Shown here one piece after another: positions 21,956 to 38,662 of a DNA stretch of 64,000 nucleotides (position 1 is its first letter; each line of letters opens with the position of its first letter). The stretch is taken from contig NZ_JAUSUZ010000001.1 in NCBI RefSeq assembly GCF_030813715.1, forward strand, positions 6,944,001 to 7,008,000, read 5' to 3'. Below the pieces are notes generated by a model that was not told the origin of the DNA, ran no database searches, and saw nothing but the letters and a program-made list of their open reading frames with translations. The DNA is from Catenuloplanes indicus. GTDB lineage: Bacteria > Actinomycetota > Actinomycetes > Mycobacteriales > Micromonosporaceae. The position numbers and the translations under genes were made by a program.

Positions 21956-22777
21956 TCAGTAGCCGTCCGGGCCGAAGTGGCCGCGGAGCTTGGTGAGCGC
22001 ACGGGCCAGCAGGCGGGAGACGTGCATCTGCGAGACGCCGATCTGGTCCGCGATCTGCGACTGGGTGAGGTTGCCGTAGAAGCGGAGCGTCAGGATCTTC
22101 TGCTCGCGCTCGTCCAGCGTCGCCAGCGCCGGGCCCAGGGCCACGCGCAGCTCGGCCAGCTCGTACTCCCGGTCGACGCCGCCGAGCGTGTCGCCCAGTT
22201 CGGTCGAGCCGTCCGCGGTGGCCGGGGTGGAGAGCGAGGTGGCCGTGTAGGCGCGGGCGCCCTCGAGGCCCTCCAGCACCTCCTCCTCGGTGACCTTCAG
22301 GTGCGCGGCGATGTCCGCGACCGTCGGCGAGCGGCCCAGCGACTGCAGCAGCGTGCTGTTCGCCTCGGAGATGGCCAGCCGCAGCTCCTGCAGCCGGCGC
22401 GGGACCCGCACGTCCCAGGTCCGGTCGCGGAAGTAGCGCTTGATCTCGCCGATGATGGTCGGGATCGCGTAGCCGGCGAAGTCGACGCCACGCTCGGGGT
22501 CGAACTTGTCGATCGCCTTGATCAGGCCGATCGTCGCGGTCTGCTCCAGGTCGTCCATCGGCTCGCCGCGGCCGGAGAAGCGCAGCGCCAGGTGACGGGC
22601 GAGCGGCAGCCACGCCTCGATCGCCCTGTCGCGGAGCGCCTCGCGGGACGGATGCCCGGCCGGCATCGCGCACAGCGTCTGAAGAAGCTCGGTCGCCTTG
22701 TCCGCCTGGGCGGCACGGGCGATCGGCTGCGGCTTGACGTCGGCCGCTGCCGTGTCCTGCGTCGTCGTCGTGGTCAT
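21956..22777 (-). CDS. SigF/SigB-family RNA polymerase sigma factor
   Basis: A 273-residue group 3 (SigB/SigF/SigG) sigma factor. Region 2 is visible at DLEQTATIGLIKAIDKFDPERG with FAGYAIPTIIGEIKRYFRD, region 3 at RRLQELRLAISEAN to EEEVLEGLEGARAY, and the region 4 helix-turn-helix at LTQSQIADQIGVSQMHVSRL. Such factors direct stress or sporulation regulons and are normally held by an anti-sigma factor under phosphatase control; no anti-sigma or antagonist gene is adjacent. ATG at 22777 has GGGAGGACCACC upstream. A SigB/F-type promoter about 95 bases upstream suggests autoregulation. Confidence 0.92.
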   Translation of the reverse strand: MTTTTTQDTAAADVKPQPIARAAQADKATELLQTLCAMPAGHPSREALRDRAIEAWLPLARHLALRFSGRGEPMDDLEQTATIGLIKAIDKFDPERGVDFAGYAIPTIIGEIKRYFRDRTWDVRVPRRLQELRLAISEANSTLLQSLGRSPTVADIAAHLKVTEEEVLEGLEGARAYTATSLSTPATADGSTELGDTLGGVDREYELAELRVALGPALATLDEREQKILTLRFYGNLTQSQIADQIGVSQMHVSRLLARALTKLRGHFGPDGY

Positions 22778-22871
22778 GGTGGTCCTCCCGGCACCTCGAT
22801 GTCCTCCGTGCCCCGGGGGCGCGAGTCGATGGTTGGTGCACGACATCGACCGGGGGCTCGGCGCACCCTTG

Positions 22872-22897: not shown

Positions 22898-23019
22898 CAC
22901 TTTTCTTCAAGAATATTTGCCGTCCACCAATCGAGTTCGCGTACCATGTCGCTCCGTAGTGAATCAACTACCTTAAGTGACGCACTTCCGACTCCACGGT
23001 GGAGCGATGGTTGTCTATG

Positions 23020-23562
23020 ATGTGGACCGTGGCACGGATACTTCTCGTACCCGGGCGCAGCGCCGCCGCACCCGACCACTGGCAGTCCCGCTGGGCCGCC
23101 GCCAACCCCGACTACCAGTGGGTGCCCCGTCCCAGCGGCCCGCTCTTCGACCTCGAGCTGCGCGTCGCCGCGCTGCACCGGGCGATCACCGCCGCGCGCA
23201 CGCCGGCGGTACTGGTCGCGCACAGCGCCGGCTGCATCACCACCGTCGTCTGGGCCAGCCGGCACGCCGGGCCGGTGCGCGGCGCACTGCTGGTCGCCCC
23301 GCCGTACATCGATCCCGAGTGGCGGCCCGGCCCGGACGATCCCGACGAGCCGGCCATCGACGTGCCGCGCACCGCGCTGCCGTTCCCGGCGATCGTGGTC
23401 GCCAGCCGCACCGACCCCTACGCGGAGTTCGAGGAGTCCCGCGACTACGCGCTGGACTGGGGTGCCCAGCTGATCGACGCGGGTGACGCCGGGCACCTGC
23501 ACAGCGCGGCCGGTTACGGTCCCTGGCCGGCCGGCGAACAACTGCTGAAAAACCTTCTATGA
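23020..23562 (+). CDS. RBBP9/YdeN-type alpha/beta hydrolase
   Basis: A ~180-residue small serine hydrolase. The early ILLVPG strand and WQSRWAA block, nucleophile elbow VAHSAGC (catalytic Ser), the Asp in ASRTDPY and the late His in AGHLHSAAGYG with GPWPAG are the order and spacing of the RBBP9/YdeN (DUF1234-like) family. Physiological substrate unknown. Two adjacent ATGs (23017, 23020) and a GTG at 23029 are possible starts; GGAG lies upstream of the ATGs. Divergent from the sigma-factor gene; about 150 bases without a gene follow it. Confidence 0.85.
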   Translation: MWTVARILLVPGRSAAAPDHWQSRWAAANPDYQWVPRPSGPLFDLELRVAALHRAITAARTPAVLVAHSAGCITTVVWASRHAGPVRGALLVAPPYIDPEWRPGPDDPDEPAIDVPRTALPFPAIVVASRTDPYAEFEESRDYALDWGAQLIDAGDAGHLHSAAGYGPWPAGEQLLKNLL

Positions 23563-24281: not shown

Positions 24282-24896
24282 ATGAACCTCACCCCACGCG
24301 CCACCGGCCTCGGCATCGCCGGGATCGCGCTGCTGCTGGCGCTGTCCGGCTGCAGTCTGCTCGGGCTCACCACGGAGAGCACCACGTCCGGCTCGGGTGC
24401 GGACTCCGGCGCGGCCGCGGGCGAGTGGACCACGCGCGTGCTGGACGGGCCGCGCGCCGCCAGCCCGACCCCGGGCGCGCCGATCACCAGTCCCACGCCG
24501 TCCGGCGTGCTCACGCTCGACCCGCTGCCGTCGGTGTCGGTCAGCCCGCTCCCGCCGGAGTGCCGGGGCAACCTGCGGCCGAACGTACTGAACGGGCTCA
24601 CCGTCACGCCCGGCGCCGGGCAGGCCACGGTCACCTGGGTCAACGTGGGCGACCCGGCCGTGCAGTCGTACCGGCTGGCCGCGATCCCGCAGACCATCTA
24701 CTACGGCGAGCAGGCGCCGGCGAACTGGATGGACGTCCCGGCCGGCGACGGATGCACCACCATCACCCGGACCGTGACCGGGCTGACGAAGGGCGAGCCG
24801 TACATCTTCTGGCTGGATGCGATCGTCAACTCGTACGAGTACGGCCAGGGCCGCGACATCCAGATCGCCCGCTCCACGCCGATCATCATTCGGTGA
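24282..24896 (+). CDS. Lipoprotein with fibronectin III-like domain
   Basis: A 204-residue lipoprotein: signal peptide with lipobox LSGC (Cys at about residue 25), a Ser/Thr/Pro-rich spacer (about 30-100), and a C-terminal FN3-like domain with the pattern VTPGAGQATVTWVN, YRLAAIP and a closing VTGLTKGEPYIFWLDAI. Likely a surface-attached adhesion or spacer protein; no partner is evident. ATG at 24282 with GGAAGG upstream. Its last 11 bases overlap the 3' end of the convergent universal stress protein gene. Confidence 0.8.
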   Translation: MNLTPRATGLGIAGIALLLALSGCSLLGLTTESTTSGSGADSGAAAGEWTTRVLDGPRAASPTPGAPITSPTPSGVLTLDPLPSVSVSPLPPECRGNLRPNVLNGLTVTPGAGQATVTWVNVGDPAVQSYRLAAIPQTIYYGEQAPANWMDVPAGDGCTTITRTVTGLTKGEPYIFWLDAIVNSYEYGQGRDIQIARSTPIIIR

Positions 24897-25263
24897 CCGG
24901 CGCCGCCACGGTCGTCGTGCGGGTCCGCGGTACCCGCTGACCGGGCACCAGAACCAGCAGCGCCGCGTTCGCCGCCGCGTGCGCCAGTGCGAACTCGGGC
25001 TCGCCCAGGATCAGCTCGCGCATGACCGGAGGCCGGGACGGCAGGCCGCGCACGGCCCGTTCGATCGCGTCCGCCTGGGCGCGCTGCAGCCGCTCCCGTT
25101 CGGCCGGCAGTGTCCCGGCCGCCCGCGCCGCGTCCCGGTCCCGGGCCGGCCAGGCGGTCACCACCCGCAGTGCGCCGCGCTGCCGGGCCGCCGTCCGCGC
25201 CGCCCACCGCAGCGCCGCCTCCGACTCCGGTGTGCCGTCGTAACCGATCGCGATCCGTTCCAT
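24886..25263 (-). CDS. Universal stress protein (UspA family)
   Basis: A 125-residue UspA-fold protein: ERIAIGYDGTPESEAALRWA is the classical N-terminal strand-helix (the Asp that positions ATP), followed by LRVVTAWP and a C-terminal half that is shorter than usual. The ATP-binding Gly-x2-Gly-x9-Gly-Ser/Thr loop of nucleotide-binding USPs is not seen; LVLVPGQRVPRTRTT replaces it, so it may not bind ATP. ATG at 25263 follows GAGGAGG. It is divergent from the SpoIIE-type phosphatase and close to the sigma factor, consistent with a general-stress block. Confidence 0.85.
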   Translation of the reverse strand: MERIAIGYDGTPESEAALRWAARTAARQRGALRVVTAWPARDRDAARAAGTLPAERERLQRAQADAIERAVRGLPSRPPVMRELILGEPEFALAHAAANAALLVLVPGQRVPRTRTTTVAAPVTE

Positions 25264-25422
25264 CGCAGCCTCCTCGGGCTCGAACCGAGTCTTGCAACCG
25301 CGCGTGTCTGGGTAACAGGGCCGTTGGTCCCGGGACGGACCTGGACCGCCGGCAAAACCGCTGGCAAGGTGAGGAACGGGGCGCCGCCGCGCGGGTCGAC
25401 GGTCCGGAGGAGGGTGGTGCCG

Positions 25423-26559
25423 ATGGCGGCGGACGACGACTTCGGTGCGCTGCTGCGGGCGACCGCCCCGGACCGCCTGGTCGAGGCCGCCGACGCATAC
25501 CTCCGCGAGTGGTACGGCGTCGAGCGCGTGGACGTGCTGCTGGCCGACTACCGCATCTCCGGGCTCTGGCCGGTGCTGGACGGTCACCAGGACCCGGTGG
25601 GCGGCGTGCTGCGCGACCGCGGCGCCTCCGCCCGCTGCTTCGCCGGCCAGCAGCTGATCATCGAGGACGGCCGGGTGTTCCTGCCGCTCACGGTCTGGGG
25701 CGAGCGGGTCGGCGTGCTCGTGCTGGACGGTGACGACCTCGATCTGGACCGGCTCGCCGAGACCGCGGACGAGCTGGCGATCGCGATCCGTGCCGCGGAC
25801 CGGGACACCGACCGCTACCGCCTGGCCCGCCGCCGGGACCGGCTCACCATGGCCGCGGAGATGCAGTGGGACCTGCTGCCCGGCCGCAGCCTCAGCCACC
25901 CGCGCTTCGAGCTGGCCGGCCAGCTGGAACCGGCCTACCAGGTGGCCGGCGACCACTTCGACTGGGCGGTCACCGGCGAGAAGCTGACGATCACGGTCCT
26001 CAACGGGTACGGCGGCGGCCTGGCCGCGTCCGCGCTGTCCGGGCTCGCGATCAACGCGATGCGCAACGCGCGCCGGTCCGGTGGCGACATCGTCGAGCAG
26101 GCCGAGCTGGCCTCGGACACGGTCTTCGCACACCACGGCGGCGAGAAGCACGTGGCCACGCTGCTGCTCGAGGCCGACCTCAACACCGGGCGGGTCCGGG
26201 CCGTCGACGCCGGGTCACCGCGCGCGTTCCGGATCCGCGGCCCGAAGCTGTCCCCGATCACGCTGGACCAGCAGCTGCCGCTCGGCATGTTCGGCGAGGC
26301 GCGCTACGCCACCCAGTCGTTCCTGCTGGAGCCCGGCGACCGGCTGTTCATCGTCAGCGACGGCGTGCACGCGGCCGCGCCCGGCGAGCGGGAGCCGTTC
26401 GGCGAGGCGGCGATGCTGGCCGCGGTGCGCGCCACCCGGCTGCAGCCACCGGCCGAGGCGGTCGGCTCCGTGATGCGCGGACTGCAGGACTACCACGACG
26501 ACGCGGACCCGGACGACGACGCCGTGATCGTCTGTCTTGATTGGCACGGTACGGACTGA
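25423..26559 (+). CDS. SpoIIE/RsbU-type PP2C phosphatase with GAF-like N-terminus
   Basis: A 378-residue phosphatase. Residues 1-135 form a GAF-like sensor part; about 150-375 is a PP2C_SIG (SpoIIE) domain with the metal ligands in VAGDHFDW, the FIVSDGV block and the final DDDAVIVCL. RsbU/SpoIIE enzymes dephosphorylate an anti-anti-sigma factor and thereby free a SigB/SigF-type sigma factor; such a sigma factor lies 2.6 kb away, though no RsbV/RsbW gene is in the window, so the link is inferred. ATG at 25423 with GGAGGAGG nine bases upstream. The GTG two codons earlier is an alternative. Confidence 0.9.
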   Translation: MAADDDFGALLRATAPDRLVEAADAYLREWYGVERVDVLLADYRISGLWPVLDGHQDPVGGVLRDRGASARCFAGQQLIIEDGRVFLPLTVWGERVGVLVLDGDDLDLDRLAETADELAIAIRAADRDTDRYRLARRRDRLTMAAEMQWDLLPGRSLSHPRFELAGQLEPAYQVAGDHFDWAVTGEKLTITVLNGYGGGLAASALSGLAINAMRNARRSGGDIVEQAELASDTVFAHHGGEKHVATLLLEADLNTGRVRAVDAGSPRAFRIRGPKLSPITLDQQLPLGMFGEARYATQSFLLEPGDRLFIVSDGVHAAAPGEREPFGEAAMLAAVRATRLQPPAEAVGSVMRGLQDYHDDADPDDDAVIVCLDWHGTD

Positions 26560-26608: not shown

Positions 26609-27118
26609 ATGAAGAGCGTGGCTGACTTGGCCGTCGCCGTGGAGGCGGCCGTGGGGCCGTTGCTCGACGTGCTCGACTCCGCCCGGAACGACCCGCGGCT
26701 GCCGGTCTCGGCCACCCAGTTCCGGGTGCTGACCATTCTCGCCCGGCACCCCGGTCTCAACCTCGGCGGGCTCGCCGAGGCGCTGGACGTGGTGCCGTCC
26801 TCGGCCAGCCGGCTGTGCGACCGGCTCGCCGCGACCGGCCTGCTCACCCGCGCGCCCGACCGGCACGACCGGCGTGAGGTGCATCTTACGCTGACGTCCA
26901 CCGCGGTGAACCTGCTGGAGGAGTTGCGGCAGCAGCGGGTGGTGGCGATAGAGGCGGTGCTGACCAGGATGCCGGCCGGTTCCCGGCGTGCGCTGCTGCG
27001 CTCGCTCACCGCGTTCGCGCTGGCCTCCGAGGGCATGATGGCCGAGGCCGCGAAGGCGATCGAGGCCATCCCCCAGGAACCCGCACCGACCTCGGCGGAC
27101 GGTCTCGGCGTCGCGTAG
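26609..27118 (+). CDS. MarR-family transcriptional regulator
   Basis: A 169-residue MarR-type winged helix protein. The DNA-recognition part is LGGLAEALDVVPSSASRLCD, followed by the wing TRAPDRHDRREVHLTLT, with dimerisation helices at both ends. No conserved redox Cys. No ribosome site is seen at ATG 26609, consistent with a leaderless message from the SigB/F-type promoter just upstream. It is convergent with the ole-like operon (15 bases between stop codons); a regulatory link to that operon is possible but its promoter region lies 4.6 kb away. Confidence 0.9.
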   Translation: MKSVADLAVAVEAAVGPLLDVLDSARNDPRLPVSATQFRVLTILARHPGLNLGGLAEALDVVPSSASRLCDRLAATGLLTRAPDRHDRREVHLTLTSTAVNLLEELRQQRVVAIEAVLTRMPAGSRRALLRSLTAFALASEGMMAEAAKAIEAIPQEPAPTSADGLGVA

Positions 27119-27133: not shown

Positions 27134-28018
27134 TCAGCGTGGACCGGCGCCGGCCCCGCCCAGGAAGTCGCCGAGGTGGCGTGCCGGCTCCCAGCCGCGT
27201 GCCCGCGCCCGTCCGATGTCCAGCACCAGGCCGTGGGCCAGTTGTTCCACCGCGTAGCGGGTGACGCCGCGGGCCCGAAGCGCCGCCGCGGCCAGCGCGA
27301 CCGGCAGCGGGATCTCGTGCACCCGTACGCCGGGCAGCACGCGGGCGACCGTCTCGTTCCGCGGGTACGGACGCGAGTCCGCGATGTTGTACGGCCCGGC
27401 CGGCCACGCGTGCGCCCGCAGGCACGCGTCCGCCAGGTTCTCCACCGCGGTGAGGCTCAGCAGCGTGTCCGGTCCGGGCAGCCGGATCACGCCCCGCCGG
27501 ACCGCGCGCCGCAGCCGGGGCAGCAGATGCGGGTCGCCGTGCCCGTAGACCGCCCGCGGCCGCAGCACCACCGCGCCCGCGTTCAGCGCCAGCCGCTCAC
27601 CGGCCGCCTTCGTCCGGCCGTACGCGGTGCGCTGCCCGTCCACCGGATGGTCCTCGGTGACCACGCCGTCGTGCGCCCGGTAGACGCTGCCGCTGCTCAC
27701 CCACACCACCGGCCGCGCTCCGGCCGCGTCCAGCAGCCACCGCGTACCGTCCACGTTGACCGCGTGGAACGCCCGCTCGGCCCGCCGCCCGGGCGCCGGA
27801 TCGCCGACCGCAGCCGCGAGGTGGACGACGAGGTCGGCGCCGCTCAGGTCGGGCGGCCCGGCCGCCGCGTCCCACCGCACGTGCCGGGTCCCGTCCGGCC
27901 CGGGCCGGCGCCCGAGGCACACCACGTCGGCACCCAGCGCCCGCGCGCCCCGCGCCACGTAGCCACCGCAGAACCCGCTGGCCCCGGTCACCGCGACCCG
28001 CACACCTGGCCCGATCAC
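27134..28018 (-). CDS. OleD-like NAD(P)-dependent beta-ketoacid reductase (SDR epimerase fold)
   Basis: A 294-residue extended short-chain dehydrogenase: nucleotide loop TGASGFCGG (residues 11-19), WVSSGSVY with the catalytic Ser, and Y133xxxK137 in TAYGRTKAAGE; PRAVYGHGDPHLLP is typical of the 3-beta-HSD/OleD branch. In Ole pathways OleD reduces the 2-alkyl-3-ketoacid made by OleA to the 2-alkyl-3-hydroxyacid used by OleC. It is the last gene of the operon; GTG start at 28018 forms a GTGA overlap with the P450 stop. No terminator is obvious in the 15 bases before the convergent marR-like gene. Confidence 0.85.
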   Translation of the reverse strand: MIGPGVRVAVTGASGFCGGYVARGARALGADVVCLGRRPGPDGTRHVRWDAAAGPPDLSGADLVVHLAAAVGDPAPGRRAERAFHAVNVDGTRWLLDAAGARPVVWVSSGSVYRAHDGVVTEDHPVDGQRTAYGRTKAAGERLALNAGAVVLRPRAVYGHGDPHLLPRLRRAVRRGVIRLPGPDTLLSLTAVENLADACLRAHAWPAGPYNIADSRPYPRNETVARVLPGVRVHEIPLPVALAAAALRARGVTRYAVEQLAHGLVLDIGRARARGWEPARHLGDFLGGAGAGPR

Positions 28019-29250
28019 GCGCCGGCCTCGGGGGTGGCGCCGCTTGCACCGGGCGGGTGGCTTGCACCGGTCCGAATGGTCGCGGCGGGCACGCCGCGGG
28101 TGGTCGCCTCGATCGTGAGGACACGCCAGCCGGGGAGGGCGGCGCCGCGGTCCGGGCGGGCGGTGACGACCGCCGGGTGCAGCGGGGCGAGGGCCGCGAG
28201 CACGTCGCGCAGTTGTGCGCGGGCCAGCGCGGCGCCCGGGCAGGCGTGCGGGCCGGTGCCGAAGACCAGCTGCGCCACGTGCGGTGGCGCCGGGTCCGCC
28301 GGGTCCGGGTCGCGGTGGTGCGCGCCGGTGGCGTGCCGGGTCACCAGGATCAGGCGGTCGCCGTGCGCCACCGGGCAGCCGCCGATCACCCCGTCGCCGC
28401 CCGCGGCCCGGGGCAGCAGCGGCGTCGGTACGACGACCCGCAGCAGCTCCGAGACCAGCGCGTCCAGCCGCTCCCCGCCCGCGGCGGCGTGCTCCCACAG
28501 CCGGTCGTCGGCACACCAGGCCACCGCCCGCGGTATCGCCGCGACCGTCGTGTTGATCGCCGCCACCGCCAGCATCGAGGCCAGCCCGGTCCCCGTCTCC
28601 GGCCCGGCGTCCGCGCGCGCCACCGGACATCCGCTCCCCGGCCGGCCGGCGCCCGGCCGCGCCACCCGGGGTGCGTTCGCGAGCAGCGTGGTGAGCGCCC
28701 GCGCCGCGGTGGCCGGGTCGTGGCCGCGCCGGGCCGGCAGCCGGATTCCCGGCAGGTGCGCCCGGGCCGCCGCCGCGGCCGCGGTGCGCGCGGCCCGGGA
28801 CAGCTCTCGGGGGTCGGCGTCGATGCCGAGCAGCGCTGCCGCCGTGCTGCCGGCCAGTTCCGCGGTCATGTCGACCAGGTCGGCCCGCCCGCCGTCGCGC
28901 AGCGCGCCGAGCCGCCGGTCCAGCACGGATCGCCACACCGGCCGGAGCCGCTCCACCCCCGCGCTGCTCAGCCGCGCTGCGAGGTCGCGCCGCGCGTTCC
29001 GGTGTGCCGCGCCGTCCTGGTCGAAGAGCAGGTCCGCGTCGGCCAGGTCGCGGGCGATCGCGCCGGTCGTGCCGTCCGCCCGCCGGTCGAGTGGCACCCG
29101 CGTCATCGCCTCGACGAACGCGTCGGTGCCGTTGACCAGCAGCGTACCGCCGAGCCGTGTCACCGCACGGTGGCGCACCGCCGCCAGCAGCGCGAACAGC
29201 ACCGGATGCCCGCTCAGGTACACCCGGCGGTCCCGGGCCCGCGCCCTCAT
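28015..29250 (-). CDS. Cytochrome P450 in ole-like operon
   Basis: A 411-residue soluble P450. The haem-binding motif is FGTGPHACPG (Cys337) and the K-helix ExxR is E268-R271 (SELLRV). The I-helix reads AAINTTVAAI: the usual acidic residue before the oxygen-activating Thr is replaced by Asn/Thr, an unusual feature that could change oxygen activation. The protein is short of the usual N-terminal beta region start and opens with a strongly basic MRARARDRR. ATG at 29250 overlaps the oleC-like stop (ATGA), and its own stop overlaps oleD-like (GTGA). A P450 is not part of the standard OleABCD set; it probably hydroxylates or otherwise oxidises an acyl substrate or the final product. Confidence 0.88.
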   Translation of the reverse strand: MRARARDRRVYLSGHPVLFALLAAVRHRAVTRLGGTLLVNGTDAFVEAMTRVPLDRRADGTTGAIARDLADADLLFDQDGAAHRNARRDLAARLSSAGVERLRPVWRSVLDRRLGALRDGGRADLVDMTAELAGSTAAALLGIDADPRELSRAARTAAAAAARAHLPGIRLPARRGHDPATAARALTTLLANAPRVARPGAGRPGSGCPVARADAGPETGTGLASMLAVAAINTTVAAIPRAVAWCADDRLWEHAAAGGERLDALVSELLRVVVPTPLLPRAAGGDGVIGGCPVAHGDRLILVTRHATGAHHRDPDPADPAPPHVAQLVFGTGPHACPGAALARAQLRDVLAALAPLHPAVVTARPDRGAALPGWRVLTIEATTRGVPAATIRTGASHPPGASGATPEAGA

Positions 29251-30722
29251 CGGGGTGACAGCGCGCGGGCCGCCAGCGCGGACGCGGCGGCACGGTCGGG
29301 TTTGCGGGAGCGCCCGGAGACCGGGACCGGGGCGAAGACCAGGTGGTCCGGGCGGGCCGCGCCCATCCGGGCGAGCGGGCCGCGCAGCGCGACCCGGACC
29401 GCGGACTCGGACGCGCCCGGCTCCAGCTCGATGACCGCGGCCACGGTCTCGTCCTCGTCGAACGCCGGTACGCCGACGATCAGCGCCAGTGCCACGCCCG
29501 GCACGTGCAGCGACGGTTCGTACAGGCCGGGGTAGATGTTCTCGGCCGCGCGCAGGATCATGTCCTTCGCCCGCCCGGAGAGCACCACCCGCCCGGCCTC
29601 CAGTCGCGCGAGGTCGCCGGTGGAGACCCAGCCGTGCGGAGGCTGCCCGAGGTAGCGATGGCACATCTGTGGCCCCCGCAGCTCCAGCACGCCGCCCGCG
29701 TCCTTGCGCGCGGAGATCCCCGGCAGCAGCGCGCCGACCAGATCACCGCCGTCCGCCGAAGCGGACGCGAAGGGGATCTTCTCCCGGGACTCGACCGCCG
29801 CGGCCGGGAAGACCTCGGTCAGCGCGTACACCCCCCACGCCTCGTCCGCGCCCGCCTGCCGGACCCGGGACATCAGCGCGGCCGACACCGGCGCGGAGCC
29901 GCTGTAGACCCGCCCGGTGAACCGCGCGCCCGCGTTCAGCGCCGCCCGCAGCTCCGGCGGCGTCAGGTAGGTGGCCTGCGGCGCCAGCCGGGCGAGCTGC
30001 CGGGCCAGCGTGGCCGGCCGGCCCGCGGGCATGGCGACCGGTGCGCCCTCGGCCAGCGCCGGTGCGAGCACGAAGAACGTGCCACCGGCGACCGGCGTGC
30101 CCGGCACCGGCCGGACCAGCTCGGTGACCGCGCGCATGCCCGCGTCCAGGCCGGCCCGGCCGTGCACGACCGCGCGCGGGCTGCTGGTGGTGCCGGACGT
30201 GAACACGATGACCGCGTCGCCGTCCCCGTCGAAGACCGGCGGCGTACCCCCGGCTGGTATCTCCAGGGACGGTGCGGAGCCGGGCCAGCGGCGGCCGAGC
30301 GTGACCACCGGTGCCAGATCGCCGAGCGTGGGCAGCGCCAGCCGGGCGCGGCGGGCCAGCGGCGCGGCCCAGGACGCGAGCGCCTGCGCGGCGCCGTCCG
30401 CCACGATCAGCGCAGGTGCCGCGAGCCGGAGGCGGGCGAGCAGCACGTCCGGCCCGGCGGCCGGGTCGAGGATCGCGGTGCACACGCCGAGGCGGTGCGC
30501 GGCCAGCATCAGCGCGAGCGCGGCCGGGCCGGGGATGACGGCGACGCCGAGCGTGTCACCGGCGCGCAGGCCGCGGTGGTGCAGCGCCCGCGCGTACCCC
30601 TCGGTCAGGTCGTGCAGGTGCCCGCGCGTGGCCCGGACGCGGGGCCGGCCGGTGACCGTGGTGCCGAGCACGGCCGGGCAGTCGGTGTCGCGGGCCAGCG
30701 CGACGCGCAGCCGGTCCAGCAT
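29247..30722 (-). CDS. OleC-like beta-lactone synthetase (AMP-dependent ligase family)
   Basis: A 491-residue ANL-superfamily enzyme: P-loop VIVFTSGTTSSPRAVVHGR (about 170-188), the A5-type motif YALTEVFPAAA, the A7 block STGDLARL, hinge SGRAKDMI and a C-terminal lysine in GRSRKPDRAA. The TEVxPxA motif is characteristic of OleC-like enzymes and differs from ordinary acyl-CoA ligases. OleC converts 2-alkyl-3-hydroxyacids to cis beta-lactones using ATP. The surrounding OleA- and OleD-like genes support this over a CoA ligase. ATG at 30722 shares a base with the oleA-like stop (TGATG), so expression is coupled. Confidence 0.82.
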   Translation of the reverse strand: MLDRLRVALARDTDCPAVLGTTVTGRPRVRATRGHLHDLTEGYARALHHRGLRAGDTLGVAVIPGPAALALMLAAHRLGVCTAILDPAAGPDVLLARLRLAAPALIVADGAAQALASWAAPLARRARLALPTLGDLAPVVTLGRRWPGSAPSLEIPAGGTPPVFDGDGDAVIVFTSGTTSSPRAVVHGRAGLDAGMRAVTELVRPVPGTPVAGGTFFVLAPALAEGAPVAMPAGRPATLARQLARLAPQATYLTPPELRAALNAGARFTGRVYSGSAPVSAALMSRVRQAGADEAWGVYALTEVFPAAAVESREKIPFASASADGGDLVGALLPGISARKDAGGVLELRGPQMCHRYLGQPPHGWVSTGDLARLEAGRVVLSGRAKDMILRAAENIYPGLYEPSLHVPGVALALIVGVPAFDEDETVAAVIELEPGASESAVRVALRGPLARMGAARPDHLVFAPVPVSGRSRKPDRAAASALAARALSPR

Positions 30723-31726
30723 CAGGCCTTCTCCCAGACCATGGTCATCATGCTGATGCCGCCGCCGAGACCGGCCAGCAGCACCCGGTCGCCGGTGCGA
30801 AGACCGGGAAAGACCCGGGTCAGCTGTACGCCGAGGCTGGCGCTGGCCAGGTTGCCCAGGGTCGGCAGCGTCGGCACCAGCTTCGCCTCGGGTACGCCGG
30901 TGATCTCCACGAACCGCTCCAGGTACGGCCCGGTGACCTGGTGCACGAGCACGTGCCGGTAGTCGTCCCAGTCCAGCCCGGTGCGGGCGGCCACCCGCTC
31001 GAAGATGCCGGCGCCGACCTTCTCGAAGACCGCGCGCAGCGTGTGCCCCTCGCCGCTGAAGTACGTGTGCTCGTCGCCGCGCGGCAGCCGGGAGCCGCCG
31101 CCCGGGATGCCGCCGACCTGCCAGTGCTCGGAGTGCGTCTCCGTGTCGACGTCCAGGATGCCGCCGCGCGGCACCGCCTCGACCAGCACCGCCGCGCCGC
31201 CGTCGCCGAACGTGTACCCGGCGAACGCGTCCCGCAGCTCCTGCATGCCGGTGAGCGCGGGCCGCATCGCGCGGGTCGGCGTCTCGCCGGTGGCCACCAG
31301 CACGCGCCCGGCCCGCCCCGCGATGATCAGTGACCGGGCCAGGTCGATGCCGTTGATGAAGCTGTTGCATGCGTTCGTCACGTCCAGCGCGTGCGCCCGC
31401 GAGCCGAGCGCGGCCTGCACGATGTGCGCGGTGGCCGGCTCGGCCATGTCCCGGCTGGCGGACGCGAAGAGCAGCACGTCGACGTCGAGCGGGTCGAGGC
31501 CGGCGTCGTCCAGCACGCGCCGGGCGGCCGCGGCCGCGAGCGTGGAAGCGTACTCGCCGTCGCCCGCGATCCGGCGTCGCCGTACGCCGGTGAGCTGCTC
31601 GAACATGCCGTCCGGCAGGCGCAGTCCGCTGGCCTCGGAGACCTGCCGCTGCAGGTCGGCGGTTTCCACCTCGCGCTCCGGCAGCGCGGCGGCCGCGGCC
31701 GTGATGCCCACCCGAGTCATGATCAT
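30722..31726 (-). CDS. OleA-like thiolase (KAS III fold), acyl-CoA head-to-head condensation
   Basis: A ~334-residue thiolase-superfamily enzyme of the KAS III/OleA group. Catalytic Cys (about residue 120) lies in DVTNACNSFINGI, His (about 263) in VLVHQVTGPYLERF, and Asn (about 293) in PTLGNLASASLG; the C-terminal glycine-rich GLGGGISMMTMVWEK is typical. OleA condenses two fatty acyl-CoAs without prior malonyl extension to a 2-alkyl-3-ketoacid. It heads the operon oleA-oleC-P450-oleD, all with 1-4 base overlaps. GAGAGG precedes the ATG at 31726; a second ATG two codons on is possible. A FabH-like role is less likely given the OleC/OleD partners. Confidence 0.84.
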   Translation of the reverse strand: MIMTRVGITAAAAALPEREVETADLQRQVSEASGLRLPDGMFEQLTGVRRRRIAGDGEYASTLAAAAARRVLDDAGLDPLDVDVLLFASASRDMAEPATAHIVQAALGSRAHALDVTNACNSFINGIDLARSLIIAGRAGRVLVATGETPTRAMRPALTGMQELRDAFAGYTFGDGGAAVLVEAVPRGGILDVDTETHSEHWQVGGIPGGGSRLPRGDEHTYFSGEGHTLRAVFEKVGAGIFERVAARTGLDWDDYRHVLVHQVTGPYLERFVEITGVPEAKLVPTLPTLGNLASASLGVQLTRVFPGLRTGDRVLLAGLGGGISMMTMVWEKA

Positions 31727-31868: not shown

Positions 31869-33923
31869 TCAGAGACGGTGGCGAATGCGGTTCAGCTCGG
31901 CGACCGAGCGGGCCGAGAACGGGCAGCCGGTGGCCGCGTGCGGTGCGTCACCCTCCGCGGTCTCGCTGACCGACCCGAGCCCCCACTCGCCCAGGTGCGC
32001 CTCCAGGCCGGTGAGCACGCCGTCGGTGGGCAGCCCGGCCGCGATGCACGCGTCCAGGTAGGGGCCGACCAGCCAGGGCCAGACCACACCCTGGTGGTAC
32101 GCGGCGTCCCGGACGATCCGGTTGCCCCGGTGGGTGCCCATGTACCCGTACTCGGACGGCGCCAGCGAACGCACGCCCATCGGGGTGAGCAGCGCGGACC
32201 CGGCCACGTTGATCGGCCGGGGCTCTGCCTCGCCGCGCAGCGGCGCGTGCGGCAGGCTGAACGCGAGCAGCTGGTTGGGCCGCAAGCAGACGTCGTCGTG
32301 CGCGGTGCCGCCGAGCGGGTAGAGCGCGGGCGGCGCGTCCACCACGTCGTACAGCCAGCCCTCCTCCGCGACGAACCGCCGCTGGAACGAGGCCAGCGCG
32401 GTCTCGTGCGCCTTCGTCAGGTCCGGGTTCTCCCGGCCGGCCGCGCGCAGCAGCCCGGTCAGGCCGGCCAGCGCGTTGATCCAGAGCGCGTTTACCTCGA
32501 CCGGCTTGCCGGTGCGCGGCGTCACCGCGACGCCGTTCAGCCGCGCGTTCATCCAGGTCAGGGCGTTGCGCTCGGAGTCGTGCCGGAGCAGGCCGTCGCT
32601 TTCGTTGACCAGCAGCACCGGTGCCTGCCGCTGGGCCGGCGTTATCGGCGTGAGCGCCTGGGTCGGCGTCTGCAGCATCGCGGCCAGCGCGGACCGCGCC
32701 TCCGCCGGCTTCTGCTCGCGCGGTGCCGGCCGGGTGGCCTGGCCCAGGCCGACGTGCCGGAGCAGCAGGTCGGTGAGCGGGTCGGCGAGCGCGGCGGCCA
32801 GGTCGGTGTCACCGAGCCGGGTCACGTGCCGCTCGACCGCGTGCACCAGCCAGAGCGGCCCGTCCACCGGGTCGTGCAGCAGGCCGGCGTCCGCGGCCTC
32901 GACCGCGGCGTTGACCCGCGCCTGGAGCAGCGCGGCGCCCTCCGAGCCGCGGCCGGTGTCCAGGAACAGTCCCTCGTACGCGGTCATGGTGTCGCCGAGG
33001 TAGGCGGTGAACCAGGGGTAGCCGGCGACCACGTCCGGCCCGCTCGCGGTGTCCACGATGAACGCGTCCGCGGCGAGCGCGAGCGTGGCCGCGGTGGAGT
33101 CGGCCGGGTCCGCGCCGGTGACCAGCTTGTGCGCGCGGTCGTGCGCGGCCGCGACGATGGTGGCCGCCGGCGGCGGGCGCTCGCCGAGGTCACCGGCCCA
33201 GGCCGACACCTCCAGCGCCCGGCCGACCTCGAGCGTGGCGGTGAACGAGCCGGCGTGCCAGAGGTCCTCGACCGGGTTCAGCCCGCGCTCCGCCTCGGCG
33301 CGCGCGAACGCGTCCAGGTGCCACTGGCCCGCGGCCGTCCACCCGGGACCGGCCAGCCGGTACGCGTTCTCCACCACGACGCCGTCCGCGACCGTCTCCA
33401 CGGTCAGCGGCGTGCCGTCCGCCCGGCGCTCGCCGTGCGCGTCGCGCCAGGTGCACATCGCGGCCAGCGAGAGGTGCACCGGGCCGGGCGCGGAGATCAG
33501 GCGGTGCACCACGCCGAGCGACGGCTGGCCGTGCGCCATCGCCAGCTCGCGCTCCAGCACCACGTCGCCGATCCGCCAGCGCCAGCGCGGCAGCCCGTCG
33601 GCGAGCTCGAACAGCTCCAGGTACGCGTGGCCGTCCGGCGCGACCGCGCCGGACGCCCACTCGTGCGTGTAGAGCTGGACCCGGGCTCCGGAGGGGAGCG
33701 TCACGGTGGCGTCCAGCGAGGCCAGTGCGACGTGGCGTTCGGTGAGCGCGGCGTCGGCCACCGCCAGCAGGGCGTGGTATCGCCGGGTGCGCAGGCCGGA
33801 TACGGTGCCCATGGCGTAACCCCCGACGCCGTCCGGCACCAGCCATTCGCGGGACGCGCCGGCTCCCTCCGACAGGGAGGCGCACACCTGGGGACCGAAG
33901 ATCAGCGGTGCGTTCAACAGCAC
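31869..33923 (-). CDS. Glycogen debranching enzyme, amylo-alpha-1,6-glucosidase type
   Basis: A ~684-residue protein with the N-terminal GDE domain (REWLVPDGVGGYAMGTVSG, about residues 22-300) and the C-terminal (alpha/alpha)6 amylo-alpha-1,6-glucosidase domain (GYPWFTAYLGDTMTAYEGL; VNALWINALAG; LRPNQLLAFSLP; GVVWPWLVGPYLDA), covering conserved acidic residues of GH133-like enzymes. It should release alpha-1,6 branches of glycogen. The start is uncertain: GTG 33923 follows AGAGGG closely, a TTG two codons later has better spacing, and an ATG at 34052 would add a non-conserved tail. Divergent from glgX-treY-treZ, so glycogen breakdown and trehalose synthesis share one control region. Confidence 0.88.
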   Translation of the reverse strand: MLLNAPLIFGPQVCASLSEGAGASREWLVPDGVGGYAMGTVSGLRTRRYHALLAVADAALTERHVALASLDATVTLPSGARVQLYTHEWASGAVAPDGHAYLELFELADGLPRWRWRIGDVVLERELAMAHGQPSLGVVHRLISAPGPVHLSLAAMCTWRDAHGERRADGTPLTVETVADGVVVENAYRLAGPGWTAAGQWHLDAFARAEAERGLNPVEDLWHAGSFTATLEVGRALEVSAWAGDLGERPPPAATIVAAAHDRAHKLVTGADPADSTAATLALAADAFIVDTASGPDVVAGYPWFTAYLGDTMTAYEGLFLDTGRGSEGAALLQARVNAAVEAADAGLLHDPVDGPLWLVHAVERHVTRLGDTDLAAALADPLTDLLLRHVGLGQATRPAPREQKPAEARSALAAMLQTPTQALTPITPAQRQAPVLLVNESDGLLRHDSERNALTWMNARLNGVAVTPRTGKPVEVNALWINALAGLTGLLRAAGRENPDLTKAHETALASFQRRFVAEEGWLYDVVDAPPALYPLGGTAHDDVCLRPNQLLAFSLPHAPLRGEAEPRPINVAGSALLTPMGVRSLAPSEYGYMGTHRGNRIVRDAAYHQGVVWPWLVGPYLDACIAAGLPTDGVLTGLEAHLGEWGLGSVSETAEGDAPHAATGCPFSARSVAELNRIRHRL

Positions 33924-34275
33924 GAGCCCTCTGTGATCGATTGGATCGCGACACGACCCATCGGGGTCTTCACTGGCAGGTGAGGACCCAACGTTGGCAG
34001 GCGATGCGCTCGACGTTATCAGCTTCTCGGCAAGATTTTGGCTCCCGTCCATGAGGAACTTCAGGGGTACGGCGAGCGAAATCCACTCGTTGCAACTGGG
34101 TGGATTAGCGCGGTGACTCTCGGGGCATAAGCGCCTCGCCCTTCGGCATGCGCACACGTGCGACCCGGGGGTACGGGTGTCCGGGATCACCGTCGCGTGG
34201 CGTGGCGGCGGTGCGGGTCCGATCCGGCGAGGATGGGTTCGCGGGCGTCCGCGACGGCGAGGGGGAGCAGCACAC
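33924..34275. other. Divergent control region between debranching enzyme and glgX-treYZ
   Basis: About 350 bases without a convincing gene. The AT-richer stretch 33990-34100 probably holds the leftward promoter; the rightward one should lie nearer 34100-34250. No clear operator palindrome or riboswitch was recognised. Confidence 0.4.
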
Positions 34276-36396
34276 ATGCAGACATGGCCAGGACGTCGTT
34301 ATCCCCTGGGTGCGACGTACGACGGCACCGGGACCAACTTCGCGATCTTCTCGGAGGTCGCGGAGTCGGTGGAGCTGTGCCTGTTCGACGAGTGGGACAT
34401 CGGGGCGGAGCAGCGGATCGAGCTGCAGGAGGTGGACGCGTTCGTCTGGCACGCCTACCTGCCGGGCGTGCAGCCGGGCCAGCGGTACGGCTACCGCGTC
34501 TACGGCCCCTACGACCCGTCCGGCAGCGGCGCCCGCTGCAACCCGCACAAGCTGCTGCTCGACCCGTACGCGAAGGCGGTCGACGGCGACGTGCAGTGGC
34601 ACCCGGCGCTGTACGGCTACCAGCTGGACGACCCGAGCCGGATGTCGGAGATCAACTCGGCGCCGTACATGCCCAAGGGCGTCGTGGTGAACCCGTACTT
34701 CGACTGGGGCAACGACCGGCCGCCGCGCACGCCGTACCACCACTCGGTGATCTACGAGGCGCACGTGAAGGGCCTGACCAAGCGGCACCCGGACATCCCG
34801 GTGGAGTTGCGCGGCACGTACGCCGGCATCGCGCACCCGGCCATGATCGACCACCTGCAGAAGCTCGGCATCACCGCGATCGAGCTGATGCCGGTGCACC
34901 AGTTCGTGCACGACCACCGGCTGCACGACCTGAACCTGCGCAACTACTGGGGCTACAACACGATCAGCTTCTTCGCCCCGTACCACGGGTACTCCGCCCT
35001 GGGCTATCTCGGCCAGCAGGTGCAGGAGTTCCGCGGCATGGTCAAGGCGCTGCACACCGCGGGCATCGAGGTCATCCTGGACGTGGTCTACAACCACACC
35101 GCGGAGGGCAACCACCTCGGCCCGACCATGTCCATGAAGGGCGTGGACAACGCGGCCTACTACCGGCTCTCCGAGGAGGACCGGCAGTACTACGTCGACT
35201 TCACCGGCACCGGCAACAGCATGAACATGCGCGGCCCGCAGACGCTGCAACTGATCATGGACTCACTGCGCTACTGGGTGCAGGAGATGCACGTGGACGG
35301 CTTCCGCTTCGACCTCGCGGCCACGCTCGCCCGCGAGTTCTACGAGGTGGACCGGCTCTCCACGTTCTTCGAGGTGGTGCAGCAGGACCCGATCATCAGC
35401 CAGGTCAAGCTGATCGCCGAGCCATGGGACGTCGGCCCGGGCGGCTATCAGGTGGGCAACTTCCCGCCGGTGTGGACCGAGTGGAACGGCAAGTTCCGGG
35501 ACACCGCGCGCGACTTCTGGCGCGGTGAGCCCGCCACGCTGGCCGAGTTCGCGTCCCGGCTGTCCGGCTCCGCCGACCTCTACCAGGACGACGGCCGCCG
35601 TCCGTTCCACAGCATCAACTTCGTCACCTGCCACGACGGGTTCACGCTGAACGACCTGGTGTCGTACAACGACAAGCACAACGAGGCGAACGGCGAGGAC
35701 AACCGGGACGGCGAGAGCCACAACCGGTCGTGGAACTGCGGCACCGAGGGCCCGACCGACGACCCGGGCGTGCTGGAGCTGCGCGCGAAGCAGCGGCGTA
35801 ACTTCCTGGCCACGCTGATGCTGTCGCAGGGCGTGCCGATGATCGGGCACGGCGACGAGCTGGGCCGCACCCAGCAGGGCAACAACAACGCGTACTGCCA
35901 GGACAGCGAGATCGCCTGGATCGACTGGGAGAACGTCGACGAGCAACTGCTCGACTTCACCCGTACGCTGGTCGCCTTCCGGAAGAAGCACCAGGTCTTC
36001 CGGCGCCGGCGGTTCTTCACCGGCCTGCCGGTCGGCGGCCGTGGCAGCGGTGAGGCGCTGCCGGACCTGGCCTGGTTCACGCCGGACGGGCGCGAGATGA
36101 ACGACGGCGACTGGGGCAACGACTTCGGCCGCGCGGTCGCGCTGTTCGTCAACGGCGAGGGCATCAAGGAACGCGGCCAGTACGGCCAGCGGCACTCCGA
36201 CCAGTCCTTCCTCCTCTGCTTCAACGCGCACGACGCACCCCTGGAATTCACGCTTCCGCCCACCGAGTACGGGCAGAAGTGGGAGAAGGTCATAGAGACC
36301 GCCGACCCGTCACCCGACAACCCCGTCGTCGCCGAGGCCGGCGGCCGGTTCTGGGTGCCGGATCGTTCGATCGTCGTGCTGGACAGGACGGTGTGA
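34276..36396 (+). CDS. glgX: Glycogen debranching protein GlgX (TreX-type isoamylase)
   Basis: A 706-residue GH13 debranching enzyme: N-terminal CBM48 (about 5-110), catalytic barrel (about 150-550) with DVVYNHT, nucleophile Asp in DGFRFDLA, acid/base Glu in LIAEPWD and third Asp in VTCHDGFT, then a C-terminal beta domain. It hydrolyses alpha-1,6 linkages, releasing linear maltooligosaccharides. It heads glgX-treY-treZ, where these chains feed trehalose synthesis, as in the well-known treXYZ operons. ATG at 34276 with GGGGGAGCAG upstream. TreY begins one base after its stop codon. Confidence 0.95.
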   Translation: MQTWPGRRYPLGATYDGTGTNFAIFSEVAESVELCLFDEWDIGAEQRIELQEVDAFVWHAYLPGVQPGQRYGYRVYGPYDPSGSGARCNPHKLLLDPYAKAVDGDVQWHPALYGYQLDDPSRMSEINSAPYMPKGVVVNPYFDWGNDRPPRTPYHHSVIYEAHVKGLTKRHPDIPVELRGTYAGIAHPAMIDHLQKLGITAIELMPVHQFVHDHRLHDLNLRNYWGYNTISFFAPYHGYSALGYLGQQVQEFRGMVKALHTAGIEVILDVVYNHTAEGNHLGPTMSMKGVDNAAYYRLSEEDRQYYVDFTGTGNSMNMRGPQTLQLIMDSLRYWVQEMHVDGFRFDLAATLAREFYEVDRLSTFFEVVQQDPIISQVKLIAEPWDVGPGGYQVGNFPPVWTEWNGKFRDTARDFWRGEPATLAEFASRLSGSADLYQDDGRRPFHSINFVTCHDGFTLNDLVSYNDKHNEANGEDNRDGESHNRSWNCGTEGPTDDPGVLELRAKQRRNFLATLMLSQGVPMIGHGDELGRTQQGNNNAYCQDSEIAWIDWENVDEQLLDFTRTLVAFRKKHQVFRRRRFFTGLPVGGRGSGEALPDLAWFTPDGREMNDGDWGNDFGRAVALFVNGEGIKERGQYGQRHSDQSFLLCFNAHDAPLEFTLPPTEYGQKWEKVIETADPSPDNPVVAEAGGRFWVPDRSIVVLDRTV

Positions 36397-36397
36397 G

Positions 36398-38662
<2,265 letters not shown>

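Follow-up and report, generated by a model that had tools for sequence, protein, structure and literature searches.

Layout and Conservation of the Operon

This report concerns a four-gene operon in a 64,000-nucleotide stretch of the genome of the soil actinomycete Catenuloplanes indicus, referred to here as the window (positions 6,944,001 to 7,008,000 of contig 1, NZ_JAUSUZ010000001.1; the genome comprises 9.25 Mb in two contigs, with a completeness rating of 100%). Four overlapping genes on the minus strand at 27134–31726 encode, in order, an OleA-type thiolase, an OleC-related ligase, a cytochrome P450 (P450), and an OleD-type reductase, with overlaps of 1, 4, and 4 bases between successive genes. 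The thiolase (30722..31720) has 332 amino acids when started from the ATG at 31720, and a second in-frame ATG is found at 31726. The ligase (29247..30722; 491 amino acids; PF00501) is AMP-forming and a probable beta-lactone synthetase. The P450 (28015..29250) consists of 411 amino acids, and the reductase (27134..28018), a short-chain dehydrogenase/reductase (SDR) of 294 amino acids, begins with GTG and contains the motifs TGASGFCGG and YGRTK. An earlier sequence-only reading had described the same four genes with the thiolase starting at 31726, and its gene order was confirmed by gene calls.

The operon is conserved within the genus. The order glgX/GDE, OleA, ligase, P450, OleD, marR, and SpoIIE-type phosphatase is the same in five of five Catenuloplanes genomes, and the ratio of nonsynonymous to synonymous substitution rates (dN/dS) against the four other genomes is 0.16–0.35 for each of the four genes. 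All four genes are coding and under constraint. Because of this shared gene order and these dN/dS values, the operon is taken to be functional and vertically kept. In C. japonicus (contig NZ_JNXY01000035.1), OleA is 86% identical to that of the window.

Thiolase, P450, and Reductase

The window thiolase matched PRK09258 best, followed by FabH-type ketoacyl synthase III models, with every one of these matches under its cut-off. The Xanthomonas campestris OleA structures 3fk5 and 3row align with it at E ~1e-27, and PqsD scores higher (E 1e-30). Its residues E94-P95, C118, H260, and N290 align with the Glu-Pro pair (Glu117-Pro in X. campestris numbering) and the catalytic Cys, His, and Asn of OleA. 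The Glu-Pro pair was found at 43 of 43 cluster loci (the window, L060–L065, L079–L113, and L115, all with OleA of at least 46% identity; L078 was left out as a duplicate of L063) and was absent from FabH-type rows. PMC7064751 reports that X. campestris OleA requires the Glu of this pair and that the pair is present in all but two of the OleA proteins considered there. The assignment as FabH is ruled out by the OleA Glu-Pro, and the OleA-like identity given in the sequence-only reading is supported.

The P450 matches PF00067 weakly (29.5 bits, over the cut-off of 22.8) and carries both the heme Cys loop (FGTGPHACPG) and the ExxR motif (ELLR). Of the 41 P450 rows from the cluster loci, 38 contain the heme Cys loop, the match being split or reaching the contig end in the other three (L100, L103, and L109), and 40 contain ExxR, with Trp replacing Arg in L112. 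The position usually held by Asp or Glu in the I-helix is Asn in 32 and Thr, Ser, or Ala in 5 of the 37 main-lineage rows; Glu is kept in the four outlying rows (L065, L112, L113, and L115). The solved P450 sequences nearest to that of the window are OxyB (E 2e-16) and CYP164A2. The reductase, with its Rossmann and YxxxK motifs, fits the OleD-like role suggested earlier, since NF042422 (OleD) is its best match among reductase families (E 3e-17), at 62.9 bits and thus under the 580-bit cut-off of that model.

The OleC-Related Ligase

Three trees bear on the placement of the ligase. In an unrooted tree of 82 rows, the cluster ligases, OleC, and other ligases formed three separate groups, and this tree could not decide on FadD. 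When the tree was rooted with adenylation (A) domains of nonribosomal peptide synthetases (NRPS; 76 rows, with 8 of the 82 dropped as 7 long branches and 1 duplicate), the cluster ligases were sister to OleC. The same relationship was recovered with support of 100/99 in a tree rooted with acetyl-CoA synthetase (Acs), which contained 48 rows (41 of the 82 and 7 outgroup or own-genome rows). Furthermore, the approximately unbiased (AU) test rejected a grouping of the cluster ligases with 13 FadD-type rows, chosen after the tree had been seen (p-AU 5e-5). The Acs-rooted tree and the AU test thus disfavor an ordinary FadD. Collectively, these sequence comparisons suggest that the window ligase is probably a lineage of its own, sister to OleC. 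The earlier description of the enzyme as OleC-like stands insofar as it groups with OleC and not with the sampled ordinary acyl-CoA ligases, but its motifs and family score set it apart from canonical OleC. Of 148 evenly sampled genomes of the class, five in addition to its own carry a ligase of the cluster lineage (41–67% identity), and the match after these is 32% identical. A cluster ligase 55% identical to that of the window is located in a different family of the class, at G436:C1:1510937-1512280, with one TGA inside the match.

Three Micromonospora loci combine the same OleA and P450 with a different ligase. In Micromonospora musae (L099), M. sp. 15K316 (L101), and M. avicenniae (L107), OleA is 64–66% and the P450 55–56% identical to those of the window, and these two genes are followed by a ligase of only 26–28% and an SDR of 34–36% identity. 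All three ligases fall inside the OleC clade of the unrooted tree. Family scoring, which covered M. musae as one of the three, gave 485 bits on the Xanthomonas-type OleC model NF045786 for its ligase, which is also over the PRK09274 cut-off, and 215 bits on OleD for its SDR. That a canonical-clade OleC accompanies this OleA-P450 pair is an argument for OleC function of the divergent ligase, and this swap is the best evidence in support of the divergent ligase and SDR doing the work of OleC and OleD. Alternatively, the Micromonospora clusters may simply make another product. The natural exchange of OleC and the divergent ligase offers a direct biochemical test of the role of the latter and of the limits of homology-based OleC calling.

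In all three Micromonospora loci, the next gene encodes an NRPS protein that combines an A domain with a peptidyl carrier protein (PCP) domain. The resulting OleA-P450-OleC-OleD-NRPS cluster occupies 7997–14836 of L099 and the same region in L101 and L107, and the N-terminal ~400 amino acids of the NRPS had no Pfam match at E 0.001.

Search for oleB

Neither the operon nor the 4 kb on either side contains an oleB, as the sequence-only reading had noted; the sole alpha/beta-hydrolase nearby is a PF06821 serine hydrolase at 22999–23562, 3.6 kb away. The search was extended to the rest of the genome, to four congeners, and to genome G011 with two OleB references, which came from OleC-linked loci, were taken to be OleB by this linkage, and are 41% identical to each other. 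No convincing oleB was detected in the complete genome of the strain, which supports the earlier reading of a pathway without OleB, although this absence is not absolute, as OleB is closely related to haloalkane dehalogenases. The oleB gene of an olefin (oleABCD) pathway is thus not convincingly represented. The best own-genome match, L118, is 36% identical and is located 4.3 Mb from the operon. It scores 378 bits on a haloalkane dehalogenase model with a cut-off of 241, versus 95 and 160 bits for the two OleB references. Matches of this kind at comparable score were found in G000, G003, and G004, and those of a second kind, L124, in G000, G002, and G004. G001 has the operon but neither kind (best E 8e-13), so that neither is present at comparable score in all five operon-bearing Catenuloplanes genomes; one G001 match, L123, the one read of 13, has a Ser nucleophile. 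In A. atraurantiacus, the best match to OleB is 40% identical over ~106 residues.

Comparison with Known Clusters and Their Variants

Smith et al. (mBio 2020; PMC7064751) described an OleA-glycosyltransferase-OleC-P450-OleD cluster without OleB in Actinoplanes (Paractinoplanes) atraurantiacus. That study reports no oleB in the A. atraurantiacus genome, predicts a hydroxylated and glycosylated beta-lactone, and states that the A. atraurantiacus OleA was active in a p-nitrophenyl ester screen and precipitated on purification. The sequence-only reading had regarded an oxidized beta-lactone from such an arrangement as undescribed; this has to be withdrawn, because that paper already contained these genes together with a glycosyltransferase (GT) and predicted an oxidized beta-lactone as the product. 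The earlier interpretation is therefore partly supported: the kind of pathway was for the most part read correctly, but its arrangement had been published before. The gene arrangement itself has been known since 2020; the new points are the absence of the GT, the separate ligase lineage, the exchange of ligase and SDR in Micromonospora, and the altered I-helix of the P450.

All four enzymes of the window operon have counterparts in the A. atraurantiacus cluster (L092), in matching order (OleA 71%, ligase 63%, P450 57%, and OleD 63% identical), but the GT2 gene that separates OleA from the ligase there is missing in the window. Since four of the five A. atraurantiacus-type genes are present in the same order and the GT is absent, the Catenuloplanes operon is a variant of this cluster type. 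A GT2 gene follows OleA in 35 of the 43 cluster loci, 14 of which have a second GT2 (in one case a weak 39% match), and is absent from this position at five Catenuloplanes and three Micromonospora loci. A search of the five Catenuloplanes genomes with the A. atraurantiacus GT detected no orthologue, the best matches being 35–37% identical over about half the length, compared with 74% over the full length in the positive control, G011. Of 250 Micromonosporaceae genomes sampled, 91, belonging to 13 of 44 genera and mostly to one of them, contain relatives of OleA (E<=1e-60); identity was at least 64% in 80 of these genomes and 45–49% in 11. Named relatives include Actinoplanes, Streptomyces, Kitasatospora, and Pseudonocardia. 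A more distant version of the cluster, in the order OleA-GT-P450-ligase-OleD, is found in L065 and in L112, L113, and L115 (Pseudonocardia and Actinocrispum), and a second P450 match is located nearby on the opposite strand at all four loci.

The nocardiolactone operon is not known to contain a P450. The lipstatin operon includes an NRPS, and its organization is resembled by that of the Micromonospora relatives, which also add an NRPS; the Catenuloplanes operon differs in having none. The olefin pathway (oleABCD or oleBC fusions) shares the chemistry of OleA, OleC, and OleD with the window operon, which differs from it in having no OleB found, an extra P450, and a non-canonical ligase. In accounts of nocardiolactone in Nocardia (PMC7413640 and PMC7064751), homologues of oleA, oleC, and oleD without oleB are associated with a dialkyl beta-lactone. 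Similarly, the lst operon for lipstatin in Streptomyces toxytricini is presented in PMC7064751 as condensing acyl-CoAs to a beta-lactone with no oleB. Lipstatin formation uses a heterodimer, LstA/LstB, according to PMC12141560, whereas the window encodes one OleA with both Cys and Glu.

Predicted Pathway and Alternative Explanations

The Catenuloplanes operon is probably a GT-less version of the Actinoplanes-type oleA-(GT)-oleC-P450-oleD cluster that makes an oxidized, unconjugated beta-lactone, each chemical step and the end product being predicted from the genes. First, OleA would join two fatty acyl-CoAs by Claisen condensation into a 2-alkyl-3-keto acid, which OleD would reduce to the 2-alkyl-3-hydroxy acid. 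Second, the OleC-related ligase would activate the carboxylate with ATP and close the beta-lactone ring. Third, the P450 would oxidize an acyl chain. As no convincing OleB was found, the beta-lactone would escape decarboxylation and be the end product. In the relatives, the hydroxyl made by the P450 may be the attachment point for a sugar, added by GT2, or for an amino acid, added by the NRPS of Micromonospora; because neither gene is present in the Catenuloplanes operon, the predicted beta-lactone is oxidized and unconjugated. Beta-lactones are covalent hydrolase inhibitors, and an anti-obesity drug is derived from lipstatin. As the smallest version of the cluster, the Catenuloplanes operon is the easiest system in which to identify the core product.

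Several observations weigh against this pathway. First, the window ligase reached only 46.4 bits on NF045786, under several CoA-ligase models. The cut-off of this model (900 bits) is a weak test, as none of 296 genomes of the phylum reaches it. The ligase does not contain the RHNAKI-type C-terminal stretch of canonical OleC rows (which is not universal in OleC, as 12 of 18 OleC-family loci, L030–L047, carry it), and its A8 (GRAKDMILRAAENIYPG) and A10 (GRSRKPDR) motifs are CoA-ligase-like, unlike those of canonical OleC rows. In addition, a topology with OleC outside the cluster ligases and all other non-Acs rows was not rejected in the AU test (p-AU 0.07). Second, the I-helix of the window P450 (AINTT) does not have the acid-alcohol pair of ordinary hydroxylases, so that plain hydroxylation is not assured. 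Third, the second own-genome match to OleB, L124, is 35% identical to an OleB reference and is under every haloalkane dehalogenase cut-off. Fourth, unrelated GT2 genes and NRPS genes at other sites in the genome could contribute in trans, and NRPS-sized ligase frames were seen. Fifth, the cluster type is frequent among some of the Micromonosporaceae and also present in Streptomyces, yet no product of any member is reported in the literature searched, which had subscription journals mostly outside it; within the same literature, no later work on the A. atraurantiacus-type cluster or its product was found by title or start of abstract. Because neither its motifs nor its family score mark the ligase as a canonical OleC and the I-helix of the P450 is atypical, we infer lactone closure and hydroxylation rather than observe them.

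A broader proposal can be put forward tentatively. The cluster ligases may constitute a second beta-lactone synthetase lineage, with CoA-ligase-like hinge and C-terminal motifs, that is evolutionarily interchangeable with canonical OleC and is paired with a P450 without the I-helix acid, which would oxidize the dialkyl beta-lactone in a non-standard way. Tailoring genes (GT2, GT2 twice, NRPS, or none) would have been swapped around a fixed OleA-P450 pair.

It is unlikely, though worth serious attention, that the ligase is an acyl-CoA synthetase that charges a fatty acid for use by OleA or activates the hydroxy acid anew, in which case the product would be an oxidized 2-alkyl-3-hydroxy (or keto) acid, its ester, or its glycoside, such as a surfactant, rather than a beta-lactone. 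The CoA-ligase-like A8 and A10 are conserved across the cluster lineage, the scores of the NCBIfam CoA-ligase models are above that of OleC, and profile scores are about equal for the OleC set (84 bits) and one FadD-type set (86 bits). However, the phylogeny favors the ligase as sister to OleC, and in Micromonospora it is a canonical-clade OleC that accompanies the same OleA and P450.

That the P450 takes the place of OleB and forms an olefin or oxidized hydrocarbon by oxidative decarboxylation of the hydroxy acid or the lactone appears quite improbable. The lack of a convincing oleB, the location of the P450 within the operon, and an I-helix without the usual acid, which may permit chemistry other than hydroxylation, are all consistent with such a role; the GT2 or NRPS genes of the relatives, however, would require a hydroxyl handle, and the nearest solved P450 sequences, OxyB and CYP164A2, also argue against it. 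A role of the P450-like protein as a glycosyltransferase helper instead of an oxygenase, as might be suggested by the GT2 genes in most relatives and by the best NCBIfam match of the M. musae P450 (TIGR04515, a P450-derived glycosyltransferase activator, at 45 bits versus a cut-off of 343), is hardly credible given the heme Cys loop in nearly all P450 rows and the retention of the P450 in Catenuloplanes and Micromonospora loci without the cluster GT.

Neighboring Genes

A MarR-family regulator gene (26609..27118, plus strand) is convergent with the operon and occupies the same place in five of five Catenuloplanes genomes. Upstream of the operon, 31869–38662 contains glycogen/trehalose-type genes (GDE, a glgX-type gene, and another gene of the alpha-amylase family). 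A glgX match is also found within ~6 kb of OleA at six loci of relatives (L079, L081, L082, L083, L089, and L092), which suggests an old shared location. Also near the operon are genes for a sigma-70 family factor (21956–22846) and the SpoIIE-type phosphatase (24817–26559).

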